Shown here: positions 35,801-41,078 of the stretch, piece after piece
Position numbering within the stretch: position 1 is the stretch's first letter
How the letters are laid out: each line of letters starts with the position of its first letter
Assembly (NCBI GenBank): GCA_017557865.1
Contig: JAFYXW010000002.1
Location: forward strand, 1-64,000
From: Candidatus Saccharimonadota bacterium
Lineage (GTDB): Bacteria; Patescibacteriota; Saccharimonadia; Saccharimonadales; Saccharimonadaceae
Direction of reading: 5' to 3'
Length of the DNA stretch: 64,000 nt
The notes under the pieces: model-generated
What the model was told of the DNA's origin: nothing
What the model saw: the letters and a program-made list of their open reading frames with translations, nothing else
Database searches by the model: none
Program-made: the position numbers and the translations under genes

Positions 35801-37084
35801 TCACACTTTTTTGATTTTGCCAAGTAGAAACAGGTAGAGAGCAGAGAGAATTGCGCCTTCTTCGATGGTGCCAGCCTCCGGACCGATAAAGTTCCCTGTC
35901 CAAGAGAGAGGCATTTCTTCGATTTCTTTTGCCAACCCGTCGTATTTTTTTGAATCTTTGTCTTTAGACTCGGTTAAATCCTTGTAGGCTTTGGAGAGCT
36001 TATTAAAAATGGTGCCGGTATCATAAAGATATTTAGAATCTTCATCTTTAAATAAATGAGCAATTTTTTCGGTAATGCCCTTTTCGCCTTTAAGGATAGC
36101 GTCGTAGGCGGCGCTAGTCTCGCGGGAAAGGTATTTTTTGCGGTGCTCAATATAGGTTTTTACGGCCTTTTCTATAGGTTGGCTTAGGCCTTCGGCCCGG
36201 TCGACAAACCAGTCGATCACAAGGTCTGGGATATTAATATTAGTGGCAGAAGTAAAATTAAGCCAGCCAGCCGCATAATTGGTTTCGAGAAGATACAACT
36301 TGCCGGTTCCCTTTTCTTTTAAAATGTCTACACCGGTATATTCGAGCCGAGAAACAGCAGCGGCCCGGCAGGCAATTTTGCCCAGGATCTCAATCATGTC
36401 TTGGTCTTCTTCGAGGAATTTCTCGCGGCCACCACTCCAGGCAACAAAGTTATCTGGATGATCGGTGTCGCCGATTTTTCGCATTATACCAACTGGGGTA
36501 CCACCGATTACAAAAACGCGCCAATCGCATTCGGCCTCGATGTATTGCTCGATTAAAAAGCCCTTAAAACTTTTGACCTTATCTAGCTCGGCTTCGTTTT
36601 TAATTAATATAATGTCTCGGCCGGCAGTACCATAACGATACTTTAGAAGGATTGGGAAATGTACCCGGTCGCCCTTGATATAAGACATGACGTTTAGTTT
36701 GTGCTTGGCCTCAAAGGTAGGAAGAGCGTGTTTCTTTAAAAACGGGTCGAGCAAGAATAGCCCCTGCTGGAAGTGTTTGTCGGAAGTGGCTGCACGCGCA
36801 CCAGCGGCATCGGCATTCATTACAATTTTGTGGTTCTTCTTGAGATAGAAAAACAAGCGCTCGGCCTCAACATAATTGTTGTTAGTGAGCTCACGAAACA
36901 CTACGTTGTCTAGAGGCGTATCCGAAAAATCGTAACGAGCGATCTCATCGGAATTTAAAATAGAGACATGCTGAAAACCCCACCCACGGTTTTCAGCAGC
37001 TCTTTTAAAGTCGTCAACTATTGGTTGATTTTTGATGCGCCCTTCAACTACCGTTAGAATCTGGTTGTTTTTGGCGGCTCCCAT
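35801..37084 (-). CDS. ATP-grasp ligase of a surface-protein operon
   Basis: 427 residues with an ATP-grasp fold at about 90-300: FPILLKYRYGTAGRDIIL (ATP-binding Lys), FLIEQYIEAECDWRVFVIGG, and LLETNYAAGWLNF as the metal-binding Glu-Asn end. It most resembles RimK/glutathione-synthetase-like ligases that join an amino acid or peptide to a carboxylate. The last 120 residues are a helical extension of unknown role. It overlaps the stop of the MPETG-anchored protein by one base and is the last gene of a four-gene operon, so it may modify those surface proteins or a cell-wall peptide. Substrate unknown. Confidence 0.8.
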   Translation of the reverse strand: MGAAKNNQILTVVEGRIKNQPIVDDFKRAAENRGWGFQHVSILNSDEIARYDFSDTPLDNVVFRELTNNNYVEAERLFFYLKKNHKIVMNADAAGARAATSDKHFQQGLFLLDPFLKKHALPTFEAKHKLNVMSYIKGDRVHFPILLKYRYGTAGRDIILIKNEAELDKVKSFKGFLIEQYIEAECDWRVFVIGGTPVGIMRKIGDTDHPDNFVAWSGGREKFLEEDQDMIEILGKIACRAAAVSRLEYTGVDILKEKGTGKLYLLETNYAAGWLNFTSATNINIPDLVIDWFVDRAEGLSQPIEKAVKTYIEHRKKYLSRETSAAYDAILKGEKGITEKIAHLFKDEDSKYLYDTGTIFNKLSKAYKDLTESKDKDSKKYDGLAKEIEEMPLSWTGNFIGPEAGTIEEGAILSALYLFLLGKIKKV

Positions 37085-38418
37085 TATTGCTCCGCTGGAG
37101 TTTCTGGTTGATCTTTCTGATCGGTTTGTTCTGGCTTCTTTTCTTCTTCTTGGCCTTTGGCAACAGCCTCAGTGGTTTTGAGGGTCTTGCGGGTGCGATA
37201 GAGGTAATAACCGCCACCACAGATACCGAGAACAACTACGATAGCCATGACAATTTCTACTGGACCAGTTTCTGGCATTTCTTGGCACTCTGGCATTTCT
37301 GGGTTGGTGGTACAGTCTTTGACTGGTGGCTCACAACCATCTTTGGTAGCAATAAGTTTAACACTGTCGGTTTTGTTGCCATCGTTGGTGCTGACAGTAA
37401 CCGTGTTGATTAATTCTTCGTTACAGTCCGTAGCGTCTTTAGCTTTAGCTTGGTAGGTAATTTCTGCCCAGCCGCTACCACCGGCATAATCACCGATGTT
37501 CATACCATTTTCGGAAATGATATCGTCGTTTACGGCAACACCGTCAGGATTGTTGTTGTTGTAGAGCTTGGCGCTTCCAGCAATATATTCTAGATTTGCT
37601 GGCAAAACATCTTTTACTACTACGTTAGTTTGGTTCATAGTGCCAGTGTTTTCATAGCGTACCTTAAAGGTGACGGTTTCGCCAACTTTGATGGTGCTGA
37701 CTCCTTCTACTACACTCTTGGTTACTTCAAAGTCTGGAGCGTCGGCAAAGATTTGGTAAGTGATATAACCGGCGTATTCGTTACAGCCTGGCAAAAGACC
37801 AGAGAACTTGTTGTAACCAAGCAAAGCGCCATCACCAAAGAGGTAATCTGGGCCAATAGATTGGCCGTTTAGATCGCCACCGTTGTGGATGATTGCAGTG
37901 CCTGGAACATAGCGAAGATACAAGTCTCGTGATGGGTACATATAAGCGCCGTCCCATACTTCTAGAGGGTCAGTGTCGGAAGCAAAGATAGTGCCGGTAA
38001 CGGTAGCTCTTTCGCCAGCTTTAACGGTGGCTGGGAAGCTGGATTTTACTGCGGCGCCATCGGCAATGCCAATAGCGGTTTTACCGACGTCGTGCGCATC
38101 GGCATTATTATGGTAGTAAATGTAGACTTCATAAGTTTTGCCTGCTTCTAGCGTAACTGACTCGCCAAAGTGCTCACCGTCTTTGACCTCACGGATACGC
38201 ACGAAGTCGCGTTCATCGCCGAGATCTGGGTTGTTAGTGATAGAGTTAAACGTGGCATACGGAGCTGGGTCTTCCCAAGTGAAGGTAGTACGATCTGGAC
38301 CCCATGGAGTATCCACGATAGCGCTTGCGTCGTTTGGTGTTGTTATGGTTAAACCACCCAAGATAGTTGCACCTAGTGCTAGACTTGATAGACTAATTTT
38401 TTTAATAGCGTTTTTCAT
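37084..38418 (-). CDS. Cell-surface protein with DUF11 domain and MPETG anchor-like end
   Basis: 444 residues. A signal peptide spans about 1-33. A Ca-binding-free beta-rich region follows, then one DUF11-type (isopeptide-like conserved repeat) domain at about 230-350 with FKVRYENTGTMNQTNVVVKDVLP. The end has MPETG at 381-385, a hydrophobic helix (387-405) and a charged tail of almost 40 residues. MPETG resembles sortase sites (LPXTG), but sortase tails are much shorter, so a plain C-terminal membrane anchor is possible too; no sortase is seen in the window. It is third in the operon, 18 bases after the Thr/Glu-rich protein. Confidence 0.8.
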   Translation of the reverse strand: MKNAIKKISLSSLALGATILGGLTITTPNDASAIVDTPWGPDRTTFTWEDPAPYATFNSITNNPDLGDERDFVRIREVKDGEHFGESVTLEAGKTYEVYIYYHNNADAHDVGKTAIGIADGAAVKSSFPATVKAGERATVTGTIFASDTDPLEVWDGAYMYPSRDLYLRYVPGTAIIHNGGDLNGQSIGPDYLFGDGALLGYNKFSGLLPGCNEYAGYITYQIFADAPDFEVTKSVVEGVSTIKVGETVTFKVRYENTGTMNQTNVVVKDVLPANLEYIAGSAKLYNNNNPDGVAVNDDIISENGMNIGDYAGGSGWAEITYQAKAKDATDCNEELINTVTVSTNDGNKTDSVKLIATKDGCEPPVKDCTTNPEMPECQEMPETGPVEIVMAIVVVLGICGGGYYLYRTRKTLKTTEAVAKGQEEEKKPEQTDQKDQPETPAEQ

Positions 38419-38436
38419 GTGAAATCTCCTCTCTTA

Positions 38437-40275
38437 TTACCAATTATTTGGGTCAGTTTCGTCTGTATCGCTAAAGTTGTCTCCGCCTGGCACTATAGGC
38501 TTCGCTCCACCCGTGTCGCCATTGCCACTAGTATTATCTGGCGGAGTGCCGGTGTCACCCGTCGCGGTAGAAGTGTTACCTCCACCCGTTTGGGCGGCTT
38601 GTTGAGCATTGTTTCCTTGCTTGTCTATTTTTTCTCCTTCATTTATTTTATTCTGTGGATTATAAACATTGTCACCATTCATTTCGTCGCCACCCTGCTT
38701 TTCGTTGCCCTGCAATCTCTCGGTGTTCTCCGTGGTGGCACCAGTGGCTGTAATGCCGCTATCAGAAAAGCCGTTGTTGTTTAGGCCATTCTGTTCGCTG
38801 CCGGCGCCTGGTTTAGCGCCGCCGTCATCTACGTAACCCTGGTTGCCAGTGTTTGTACTTTCATTCGTTTCTTTGGAAACCTCTGTTTCTGGGTTTACTG
38901 AATCCGTAACGTCAACTTCGTGCCCGATTTCTGGGTTCTGGGCGTGAGGATCGCCTTCTTTGCCCCATGTACCTTCACTGCCAGTGTCGACGAGTTCTTC
39001 ACCGGTAGTAGTGATTTCATCACCGGTATCGGTAATTTCTGTGCCGGTAGTAGTGGTTTCAAAACCTACTGAAGTGGTGATTTCTTCAGCGCCGGAAACA
39101 TATTCGCTTGGGGCAGAGTCGGTGATTTCTTCGGCCCCAGAGACTTCTTCGTTTCCAGCAGTATAGCGAGTAGTCTCATATGCAACAGAAGATTCGCTTA
39201 CCGACTGTACACAACCATCCCAATTGTTTTTGCCGTCGTCATTAACGCTGTGGTTTAGTTTAAACTTTACTACTGTTCCGTCTCTTAAAGTAAGCGTGGT
39301 GGCTTTGTAGCCTCTTTCCTCTGTTTCGGTATGAACGAGCTCTACGTTTTCGTGATTAACGTTAGCCATGTTAAGCGGAACTTGGTCTTCTTTGCTCTTG
39401 CCGTCGTTGACATCACAGTGCATATAAGCGTTATAGTACGTACCGTTTAATTCGGTTTCTCCAACCTTAGACTCATCCACTTTGTTCTTAAAGTTGTTTA
39501 GAACTTTGCCATACTCTTCGTCGCTAAGGTTTTCGATAGCTTTTTCCATGGTTGCTTCGTCTTTGATCGCCTTGAGGGAGATTGGGCGAAGATCGTCTGG
39601 GAGTTGGCAGTAATAATCCGCCAAAGATTCAGTTTGGTTTTCGGCGACGTTTTTGATAATCTCTTTTGCTTGGTCATCCGCGCTAAGGTTGTCCCAATTC
39701 TCTATAGTGTCTGCAAGGTTCTCGGAGATAACCCCCGCTGCTGCAAACCTCACACCACCTGCATCTATGAACATGCCTGGTTTGTCATAGCCATCCTTAA
39801 TGCCAGGAGCGACTTCATACTCGGTGTGGTTGGTATATGAATCTGCCACGGTCTCAGGCTCCCTGATAGATACTTGTATAACTGGAACCTCAGTTTTTTC
39901 GCTATCTGTGTTTATCACTGATTCTACGCCTGGAAGGTTCGCCTGGTCTGCATTAACGTCTTTGTCTGCAGTGTCAACACTAACCTTGCCACAACCTACC
40001 ATAAAAGTAGTAAAGAGTCCCGCTACGATGGCGTTAGCTTTCTTGTAGCTAAGAAAGATTTCAAAGATATTTTTGCTCTTAACTGTGTTTGCAGCTGCGT
40101 TTTTCCCAGCCTTATTGATGATATTTTCTAAGTTAACTGTATCTTCGGCTTTTTCGCCAACACCTTTGTTTTGTTCGTCGTTACGATCTGCTTCTGGGTT
40201 GCTTATGGTATTGTTATTCTCCATAACCTCCTCAAAAGTTGACGAGTTAATGCCGTAGTTTTCTCCGCTATTCAT
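38437..40275 (-). CDS. Large Thr/Glu-rich surface protein with late lipobox-like segment
   Basis: 612 residues, no family recognised. About 78 hydrophilic residues precede one hydrophobic segment (79-95) that ends in MVGC, a lipobox-like site with Cys95. A 78-residue stretch before a lipobox is unusual, so a plain signal anchor is the other option. The exterior part has a possibly folded region (100-380), then short repeats built of SGAEEIT and TG-D/E-EIT units (about 385-440) and a Gly/Asn/Thr-rich end without a C-terminal anchor. The start has AGGAGGTAGCA, so the ATG at 40275 is right. It overlaps the DUF5663-like gene by eight bases. The repeats are rich in Thr and Glu/Asp, the residues that ATP-grasp enzymes can link in graspetides. 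Confidence 0.7.
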   Translation of the reverse strand: MNSGENYGINSSTFEEVMENNNTISNPEADRNDEQNKGVGEKAEDTVNLENIINKAGKNAAANTVKSKNIFEIFLSYKKANAIVAGLFTTFMVGCGKVSVDTADKDVNADQANLPGVESVINTDSEKTEVPVIQVSIREPETVADSYTNHTEYEVAPGIKDGYDKPGMFIDAGGVRFAAAGVISENLADTIENWDNLSADDQAKEIIKNVAENQTESLADYYCQLPDDLRPISLKAIKDEATMEKAIENLSDEEYGKVLNNFKNKVDESKVGETELNGTYYNAYMHCDVNDGKSKEDQVPLNMANVNHENVELVHTETEERGYKATTLTLRDGTVVKFKLNHSVNDDGKNNWDGCVQSVSESSVAYETTRYTAGNEEVSGAEEITDSAPSEYVSGAEEITTSVGFETTTTGTEITDTGDEITTTGEELVDTGSEGTWGKEGDPHAQNPEIGHEVDVTDSVNPETEVSKETNESTNTGNQGYVDDGGAKPGAGSEQNGLNNNGFSDSGITATGATTENTERLQGNEKQGGDEMNGDNVYNPQNKINEGEKIDKQGNNAQQAAQTGGGNTSTATGDTGTPPDNTSGNGDTGGAKPIVPGGDNFSDTDETDPNNW

Positions 40276-40594
40276 TGCTACCTCCTAAGAAACTTTTTTG
40301 GTAATCATCTAGCACCTCGGTGATTTTTTGCTGTGGGTCAACACCAGCTTTTTCGAAGAATGCGGCAAAAACCTCTGGGTTTTCTTCGTTACGATCAAAA
40401 AGCTCGTTCACCTCGGCGAGCTGTTCTTTGTTTAAGCTGCCATAAATAGCCCAGTCGATTCTTTCATCTATGTCTTTGATGCTAGCCTCGCGGATATCTT
40501 TGTAATTTTCAGCAGGTTGTCCTGGATATTTTTGCGCGATTAGGCCATCAACGAATTTACCTAAAAACTCACGCTGGATGTAGTTGTTTTCCAT
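40268..40594 (-). CDS. DUF5663-like small protein heading the surface operon
   Basis: 108 residues, acidic and all-helical, with FLGKFVDGLIA and a later LNKEQLAEVNELFDRNEENPEVFAAFF region; this looks like the DUF5663 family of CPR bacteria, function unknown. It is the first gene of the operon that continues with the large surface protein. The promoter is TTGACA (40655-40660), 18 bases, TAATCT (40631-40636), giving a leader of about 30 bases. Confidence 0.65.
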   Translation of the reverse strand: MENNYIQREFLGKFVDGLIAQKYPGQPAENYKDIREASIKDIDERIDWAIYGSLNKEQLAEVNELFDRNEENPEVFAAFFEKAGVDPQQKITEVLDDYQKSFLGGSNE

Positions 40595-40907: not shown

Positions 40908-41078
40908 TTAAAGACTATTGATAGAGAAAATACTACCAACATGGGCACCAATTTTCCTGGCCTTAAAACTATCTATTTTTGCCTGCGTCGCATCACCTAT
41001 AACTTGAGCTTTTGGTATATACTCTGCTTCATTATTTTGATATTCAAATGGTAAATTTAATGTTTCTATGCCCGCCAT
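40908..41078 (-). CDS. 56-residue peptide gene
   Basis: Begins ATG at 41078 behind AAAGGA, ends TAA at 40908-40910. The peptide starts MAGIETLNLPFEYQNNEAEY and ends GAHVGSIFSINSL; it is soluble, without Cys or signal peptide. It is the first gene of a short transcript with a consensus promoter (41149-41177) and terminator (40686-40714). Codon use looks like coding DNA. Function unknown; no match to a known leader or bacteriocin recognised. Confidence 0.65.
   Translation of the reverse strand: MAGIETLNLPFEYQNNEAEYIPKAQVIGDATQAKIDSFKARKIGAHVGSIFSINSL

Follow-up and report, generated by a model that had tools for sequence, protein, structure and literature searches.

A RimK-like ATP-grasp ligase gene accompanies a change of repeat type in a surface-protein stalk of Saccharibacteria, suggesting enzymatic modification of the stalk

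What is the gene of a RimK-like ATP-grasp ligase doing at the end of an operon for surface proteins? The question is raised by a locus in positions 1 to 64,000 of contig JAFYXW010000002.1 (GenBank assembly GCA_017557865.1), a stretch of 64,000 nucleotides that we call the window. It comes from a Candidatus Saccharimonadota bacterium with a Saccharibacteria-like assembly of 694,178 bases in 24 contigs. Saccharibacteria are tiny bacteria that live on other bacteria. In the window, the ligase (ATPg) is encoded behind a protein of 108 amino acids (aa), a membrane protein with a repeat stalk (REP), and a surface protein with a DUF11 domain. In one Saccharibacteria family, the stalk of REP switches from proline-rich sequence to regular Thr/Ser-Glu repeats, often Thr-Gly-x-Glu, where the ligase gene adjoins, a pattern suggesting chemical modification of the stalk by the ligase. 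We propose that ATPg is an accessory, dedicated protein-modifying carboxylate ligase from the RimK/LysX clade that probably joins amino acids to the Glu side chains of the stalk. Judged from the sequences, we give this proposal as a whole an even chance.

A preliminary description of the locus had reported four overlapping or adjacent genes, and all four open reading frames (ORFs) were verified on the minus strand, coordinates included. The 108-aa gene overlaps the REP gene by 8 bases, the DUF11 gene overlaps the ATPg gene by 1 base, and 18 bases separate REP from DUF11; with genes so close, a single transcript is expected.

The association between enzyme and stalk type was found by comparison with relatives. 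REPs were collected upstream of DUF11 or beside ATPg, which gave 25 loci with the enzyme and 53 without, and the stalk was defined mechanically as the 80 residues beginning 15 after the last qualifying cysteine (23 and 48 loci, respectively). Stalks accompanied by ATPg contained 21% Glu, against 11% in those lacking it (Mann-Whitney U test; P = 7e-8), and 6% Pro, against 21% (P = 3e-7). At least two TGxE units were present in 13 of the 23 stalks with the enzyme and in none of the 48 others. A maximum of at least 7 TG dipeptides per 100 residues was reached by 12/25 and 0/53 REPs, respectively (Fisher test; P = 1.2e-7), this cut-off, like similar thresholds, having been picked after part of the data had been seen. 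An offset of +3 from Thr to Glu was enriched (0.33 over base) with ATPg only. Thr/Ser content barely differed between the two groups (P = 0.02), so that the signal lies in Glu, Pro, Gly and spacing rather than in a "Thr-rich" stalk. The association of stalk and enzyme was significant within the genus and, separately, in other genera.

A census of 174 genus genomes for a DNA pattern corresponding to TGxEGTGxEGTGxE gave a similar picture. Six genomes matched, all carrying ATPg (6 of 18, versus 0 of the 156 genomes without it; Fisher exact test, P = 5e-7). Every match among those listed lay at a REP locus, and the reversed control pattern gave zero matches across the 174 genomes. The census and the composition tests are independent of the TG threshold, although the census pattern itself was picked after the arrays had been seen, and the same genomes were reused in several tests. 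The co-occurrence across relatives that the preliminary description had proposed to check was found, in that the stalk repeat type goes with ATPg across genomes. The exact motifs SGAEEIT and TG[DE]EIT were absent from every other REP tested, so that this wording would have hinted at no enzyme link, which was revealed by TGxE and stalk composition.

Stalks without the enzyme were Pro-rich in most loci, with XP arrays whose prolines are separated by T, E, Q, D or I. The clearest contrast is that of genomes G162, G103 and G359, with 9 to 15 TGxE units, and G101, which lacks ATPg and carries NPTPDNPTPDKP; their DUF11 proteins are 80 to 81% identical. When stalks with the enzyme were paired with the nearest genome lacking it, as measured by DUF11, Glu-minus-Pro was lower in the latter in 23 of 23 pairs, which share partners and are non-independent. 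Other acidic repeats were also found beside ATPg, namely AENPSD/ENPGT (G045, G085, G310 and G340), SENSETTE (G142 and G354), KETDEKTT (G333), TKTNPEG (G386) and SEKESENEK (G002).

Stalks of low complexity evolve fast and their arrays grow by duplication, as would be expected if slippage made their composition drift and ATPg were a passenger gene. The repeats themselves argue against this. Among the 232 TGxE units, Thr is encoded by each of its four codons (113/56/39/24) and Glu by both of its codons, x being T, S, N, E, D, V or others, and three period-5 arrays keep E, T and the second G in all 43 of their 43 units while x varies. Varied codons and a free x next to fixed T, G and E indicate that T-G-x-E is kept at the protein level and not by DNA slippage. 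This synonymous divergence, together with the confinement of the triple TGxE array to genus genomes with ATPg, leaves chance drift strongly disfavoured and, in our view, very improbable. In the REP of the window, SGAEEIT occurs twice and is followed by TGTEITDTGDEITTTGEELVDTGSE, repeat counts that were matched by at most 2 of 5,000 composition shuffles. The T, G and E of its stalk are conserved in the REP of locus L211, the overall identity of the two REPs being 31%.

The small gene, REP and the DUF11/LPXTG protein form a widespread module, of which ATPg is an accessory. Relatives of DUF11 were found in 58 of 60 sampled genus genomes and in 80 of 101 family genomes, those of the 108-aa protein in 36 of the 60, and whole-length REP matches in 16 of the 60. 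A large low-complexity protein is encoded immediately upstream of DUF11 in nearly all loci inspected. ATPg orthologues were recovered from 18 of 174 genus genomes, 26 of 394 genomes in the family sample and 20 of 393 in the class sample, where G420 alone lies outside the family. A contig search with the single ATPg sequence gave no confirmed match, but an alignment query did find relatives; those named are Candidatus Saccharibacteria metagenome-assembled genomes (MAGs), many from the ruminant gut, and one is labelled Nomurabacteria. The genomes analyzed are mostly MAGs, in which contig ends cut some REPs short.

The placement of ATPg is nearly exclusive, since in 25 of the 26 family genomes it lies directly behind DUF11 or a second REP (the latter in G103 and G162). 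An ATP-grasp gene standing alone in relatives, which the preliminary description named as evidence against its idea, was found only for weaker relatives of ATPg (G178, G420 and the second copy in G333). We rejected a functional link with the neighboring rplU because in G003 an unrelated gene replaces rplU and DUF11 still adjoins ATPg. A dependence of the DUF11 protein on the enzyme was also dropped, given that G135 and others lack ATPg despite about 70% DUF11 identity; no enzyme-dependent feature was found in the MPETG/DUF11 protein. In some genomes without ATPg, the slot behind DUF11 holds a different gene of 516 to 595 aa (L109:6831-8561, and also L177, L122 and L182).

Which chemistry might such an enzyme perform? 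The preliminary description rightly recognized an ATP-grasp enzyme, as ATPg matches PF08443 (RimK) above the cut-off (E = 4.9e-15), a family matched by 12 of 12 ATPg members. The rimK_fam, MptN, LysX and CofF models each match all 12 members as well, and the score of ATPg with the RimK family model TIGR00768 (71.4 bits; E = 7.6e-20) lies below the 143-bit cut-off. In sequence comparison with known structures, ATPg gave E values of 1e-16 to 3e-16 for RimK and 4.5e-5 for the graspetide synthetase PsnB. The graspetide maturase model TIGR04187 matched 4 of 12 members, weakly (best E = 2e-6, against 3e-25 for rimK_fam). Residues K148, R189, D253, E267 and N269 are invariant among ATPg members and aligned with the catalytic residues of RimK. 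By our reading of the alignment, R189 and N269 are the counterparts of R189 and N262 of Pseudomonas RimK, which touch the bound glutamate chain (PMC10092738). These residues are catalytic in a wider set of enzymes and so leave the chemistry undecided. The AlphaFold2 model of ATPg (predicted local distance difference test, 86; predicted template modeling score, 0.87) was compared using Foldseek, in which ArgX/LysX came first (3vpb; E = 1e-12), followed by RimK (2e-11) and, nearby, PsnB (5e-11). Sequence profiles place ATPg on the RimK/LysX side of the ATP-grasp superfamily, nearer to RimK than to graspetide synthetases. In G178, an ATPg relative (L168:3332-6561) is fused at its C terminus to a RimB-like retropepsin (PF05618) and adjoins a true RimK, which points to a RimK/RimB ancestry. 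A pair of RimK-like ATP-grasp proteins together with a RimB-like protease, which is sometimes fused to one of the ligases, was also seen at many Saccharibacteria loci (L012, L015, L022, L023, L025, L026, L029 and L030), where only L012 was tested with Pfam and the others were judged by eye.

Membership in the RimK/LysX clade favors a reaction that joins amino acids to Glu side chains, whereas the fixed Thr and the i+3 spacing favor Thr-Glu esters. With such graspetide-like chemistry, ATPg would esterify Thr/Ser hydroxyls with Glu side chains (e.g., T to E at i+3 in TGxE), generating many small rings in a large surface protein. The joint conservation of Thr, Gly and Glu with a free x and the +3 offset found with ATPg only would fit this chemistry, and the ATPg fold matches the plesiocin synthetase PsnB nearly as well as RimK. 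Moreover, graspetide synthetases accept substrates that are protein-sized, have repeated cores or vary in spacing (PMC8939145, PMC12291112), and graspetide loci are predicted in the candidate phyla radiation (CPR) (PMC8939145). Esterification agrees less well with the sequence affinity of ATPg to RimK, the few and weak TIGR04187 matches, the scarcity of Thr/Ser in some stalks that have the enzyme (G003), and the passage of small rings through the translocon that it would require. No short precursor was found at the locus, the leader motif Phhx(1,2)h not having been searched in REP or the small upstream ORFs. Because its sequence is closer to RimK, we did not accept ATPg as a graspetide synthetase, and we consider a Thr/Ser side chain an unlikely nucleophile. 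We are equally doubtful of the corresponding fiber, in which many Thr/Ser-Glu cross-links along the TGxE stalk would represent a graspetide-type modification building a structural surface fiber in episymbiotic bacteria, the Pro-rich stalk being the enzyme-free alternative. Of the earlier suggestion that ATPg modifies Thr/Glu repeats, the coupling is supported, as repeat type tracks the enzyme; its graspetide chemistry would be one candidate reaction, the sequence being nearer to RimK-type amino-acid ligases.

The topology of REP constrains where a modification could take place. REP had been described as an exported repeat protein of 612 residues; its length, its repeats in excess of shuffles and its predicted location outside were retained, but an N-terminal signal peptide was looked for and none was found. 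REP is instead predicted to be a type II (N-in) single-pass membrane protein, whose one transmembrane (TM) segment, with basic residues on its N-terminal side, would leave the repeats outside. Intact REPs beside ATPg are membrane proteins of about 500 to 1585 aa. The REP of G001 (L120:3866-5437) has a Tat-like segment, SRRGFLAGAAAMAAVAGG, in place of a plain TM segment, and in several REPs the TM segment ends in a lipobox-like Cys.

Since ATPg has no export signal and the stalk is predicted outside, modification must come before translocation. In the amino-acid ligation that we propose, ATPg would act on the REP stalk in the cytoplasm, prior to export, using ATP to activate the Glu side-chain carboxylates within the repeats and joining them to a nucleophile. 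The likeliest nucleophile would be a free amino acid, for example glutamate, reacting through its amino group. A stalk modified in this way would be branched and acidic, probably also extended and protease resistant, and would substitute for the Pro-rich stalk of enzyme-free relatives. Its purpose might be a stiff or protected adhesin stalk, and a putative role of the REP module in host attachment is plausible. That the REP stalk is the substrate of ATPg seems to us very likely. We are more reserved about an amino acid as the nucleophile, for which we see slightly less than an even chance, and the probability remaining beyond amino-acid ligation and Thr-Glu esters goes to other targets or an indirect link.

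Several observations weigh against our proposal. The main mechanistic weakness is that the enzyme is cytoplasmic and the stalk is predicted outside, and amino-acid ligation by itself leaves unexplained why, in TGxE arrays, Thr is fixed to the same degree as Glu. About 10 of the 23 stalks with ATPg have other Glu and Ser/Thr repeats in place of TGxE arrays, that of G003 is largely EPEP, Pro-rich and with few Thr/Ser, and that of G251 is weakly repetitive. A ParA/ParB/L21 tree built from 55 genomes requires 12 changes in the presence of ATPg. Its well-supported branches offer seven independent pairs, of which five show the stalk trait (Glu of at least 14% and Pro of at most 10%) in agreement with the enzyme and none in opposition to it, which reaches only P = 0.0625. 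The group of G127, G134, G322, G333 and G369 lies outside this tree.

Some of these points would suit an indirect link, in which the acidic, Gly-rich stalk and ATPg are both lineage adaptations (to niche, host or wall type) and the enzyme has another target, for example the cytoplasmic domain of REP, a precursor of the wall, or the 108-aa or DUF11 protein. The separation of cytoplasmic enzyme and predicted outside stalk is consistent with it, as is a tree-controlled test that is suggestive only, and REPs with ATPg tend to be longer than those without, so that other parts of REP may also differ. Yet the same stalk change appears in several genera and in several lineages of the genus through different repeat sequences, ATPg adjacency is near-exclusive, and T, G and E are invariant inside fast-changing arrays, all of which make an indirect link improbable.

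The features of the locus are listed in Table 1, and the gene order is ileS, 108-aa gene, REP, DUF11, ATPg, rplU, parA, parB. The preliminary description had called the 108-aa protein DUF5663-like, a label that we could not retain: it had no Pfam DUF5663 match at E <= 1 and no NCBIfam match, and searches of Pfam, NCBIfam and PADLOC assigned no function to it or to REP. The DUF11 protein does match PF01345 (E = 4.5e-11) and carries the C-terminal anchor that had been described, MPETG followed by a TM helix; with its signal peptide and three sortase-like genes in the genome, it has the features of a sortase-anchored protein. Its predicted structure contains beta-strand domains, for which the Foldseek matches had low TM scores and were uninformative on function. 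A second DUF11 paralogue is encoded in the source genome (G000:C6:7254-8315), and two or more DUF11 matches occur in most of the sampled genus genomes. Between the 56-aa ORF upstream of the operon and the 108-aa gene are a terminator-like hairpin and a TTGACA...TAATCT promoter-like site, the latter read by eye.

Table 1. Coordinates of the features of the ATPg locus in the window
Feature	Position	Strand	Remarks
ATPg (RimK-like ATP-grasp ligase)	35801..37084	-	427 aa; K148, R189, D253, E267, N269 invariant; conserved C-terminal SWxGNF region
DUF11 surface protein	37084..38418	-	444 aa; signal peptide, conserved WGPxRxT...FNSIT.NP.LGDER domain, DUF11 domain, LPXTG-type anchor, TM
TM helix of DUF11 protein after MPETG (residues 389-407)	37198-37254	-	Hydropathy scan
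MPETG sorting motif (residues 381-385)	37264..37278	-	LPXTG-type motif equivalently placed in most orthologues
REP protein	38437..40275	-	612 aa; cytoplasmic N-terminal region, one TM, extracytoplasmic region, low-complexity stalk, conserved C-terminal tail (WGKEGDPHA...)
Thr/Glu repeat stalk of REP (about residues 376-436), proposed substrate	38968..39150	-	SGAEEIT, TGTE, TGDE, TGEE, TGSE
Predicted TM of REP (residues 82-100)	39976..40032	-	Hydropathy scan; Lys on N-terminal side, acidic C-terminal side
Small protein, first gene of the module	40268..40594	-	108 aa; relatives in genus genomes
56-aa ORF upstream of operon, starts MAGIETLNLPFEYQNN...	40908..41078	-	Small ORF at same place in many relatives (INLPNKVIDSDWKDD...)

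No description of a pairing of ATPg with a REP stalk was found in our searches of the open-licence PMC literature, and the attachment of Saccharibacteria to host bacteria is incompletely understood (PMC12206443). If our proposal is true, a dedicated stalk-modifying enzyme would give the fold a new role and would represent a new means of building bacterial surface fibers, for which close relatives would offer a Pro-rich, enzyme-free stalk as the alternative. The proposal makes a precise prediction, in which a single enzyme acts on a single repeat and causes a single mass shift.

Among known systems, ATPg resembles RimK/RimABK in belonging to the same ATP-grasp clade by profile, in its aligned catalytic Lys, Arg, Asp, Glu and Asn, in the acidic protein ends on which that system acts, and in the RimB-like fusion of the G178 relative beside RimK. 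It differs in its low score with the RimK model and in an extra C-terminal region of about 130 aa (SWxGNF). RimK, the S6 glutamate ligase, targets the C terminus of S6, whereas the proposed substrate of ATPg is an internal repeat of a surface protein. LysX/ArgX ligases, the top fold matches, attach amino acids to the Glu side-chain carboxylate of the small acidic protein LysW; no LysW or lysine/arginine pathway genes were seen in the ATPg operon, and the product of ATPg would not be a metabolic intermediate. Tubulin polyglutamylases (TTLL) are also ATP-grasp ligases and decorate the Glu-rich disordered tails of tubulin, but Pfam TTL matches are weak (3 of 12 ATPg members), and organism and substrate are different. 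Graspetide synthetases (PsnB of plesiocin, MdnB/C of microviridin, and ThfB) resemble ATPg in the fold match of PsnB (E = 5e-11) and in a location beside a protein with repeated Thr/Glu motifs, and a repeated Thr/Ser...Asp/Glu core does occur in the co-encoded candidate substrate, as TGxE and other Ser/Thr-Glu repeats. Their sequence affinity to ATPg is weaker, and the repeats associated with ATPg are in a membrane-anchored surface protein in place of a short precursor. A survey predicted graspetide loci in two CPR branches, with short precursors and other associated genes in the portion available to us (PMC8939145), from which the ATPg locus differs in having neither. In joining an ATP-grasp ligase to a proposed acidic repeat substrate, the locus would work in the manner of a RimK/LysX or graspetide system, but it is filed neither as RimK (71 of 143 bits) nor, given its weaker affinity and lack of a short precursor, as a graspetide locus. 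The known targets of RimK/LysX-type and graspetide-type enzymes are ribosomal proteins, carrier proteins, cofactors and small peptides (PMC10092738, PMC8939145). Covalent strengthening of stalks is known from surface adhesins with autocatalytic isopeptide or ester bonds (PMC8382745, PMC10619420), which form in folded Ig-like domains, whereas in the case of ATPg a separate enzyme would act on an unstructured repeat.

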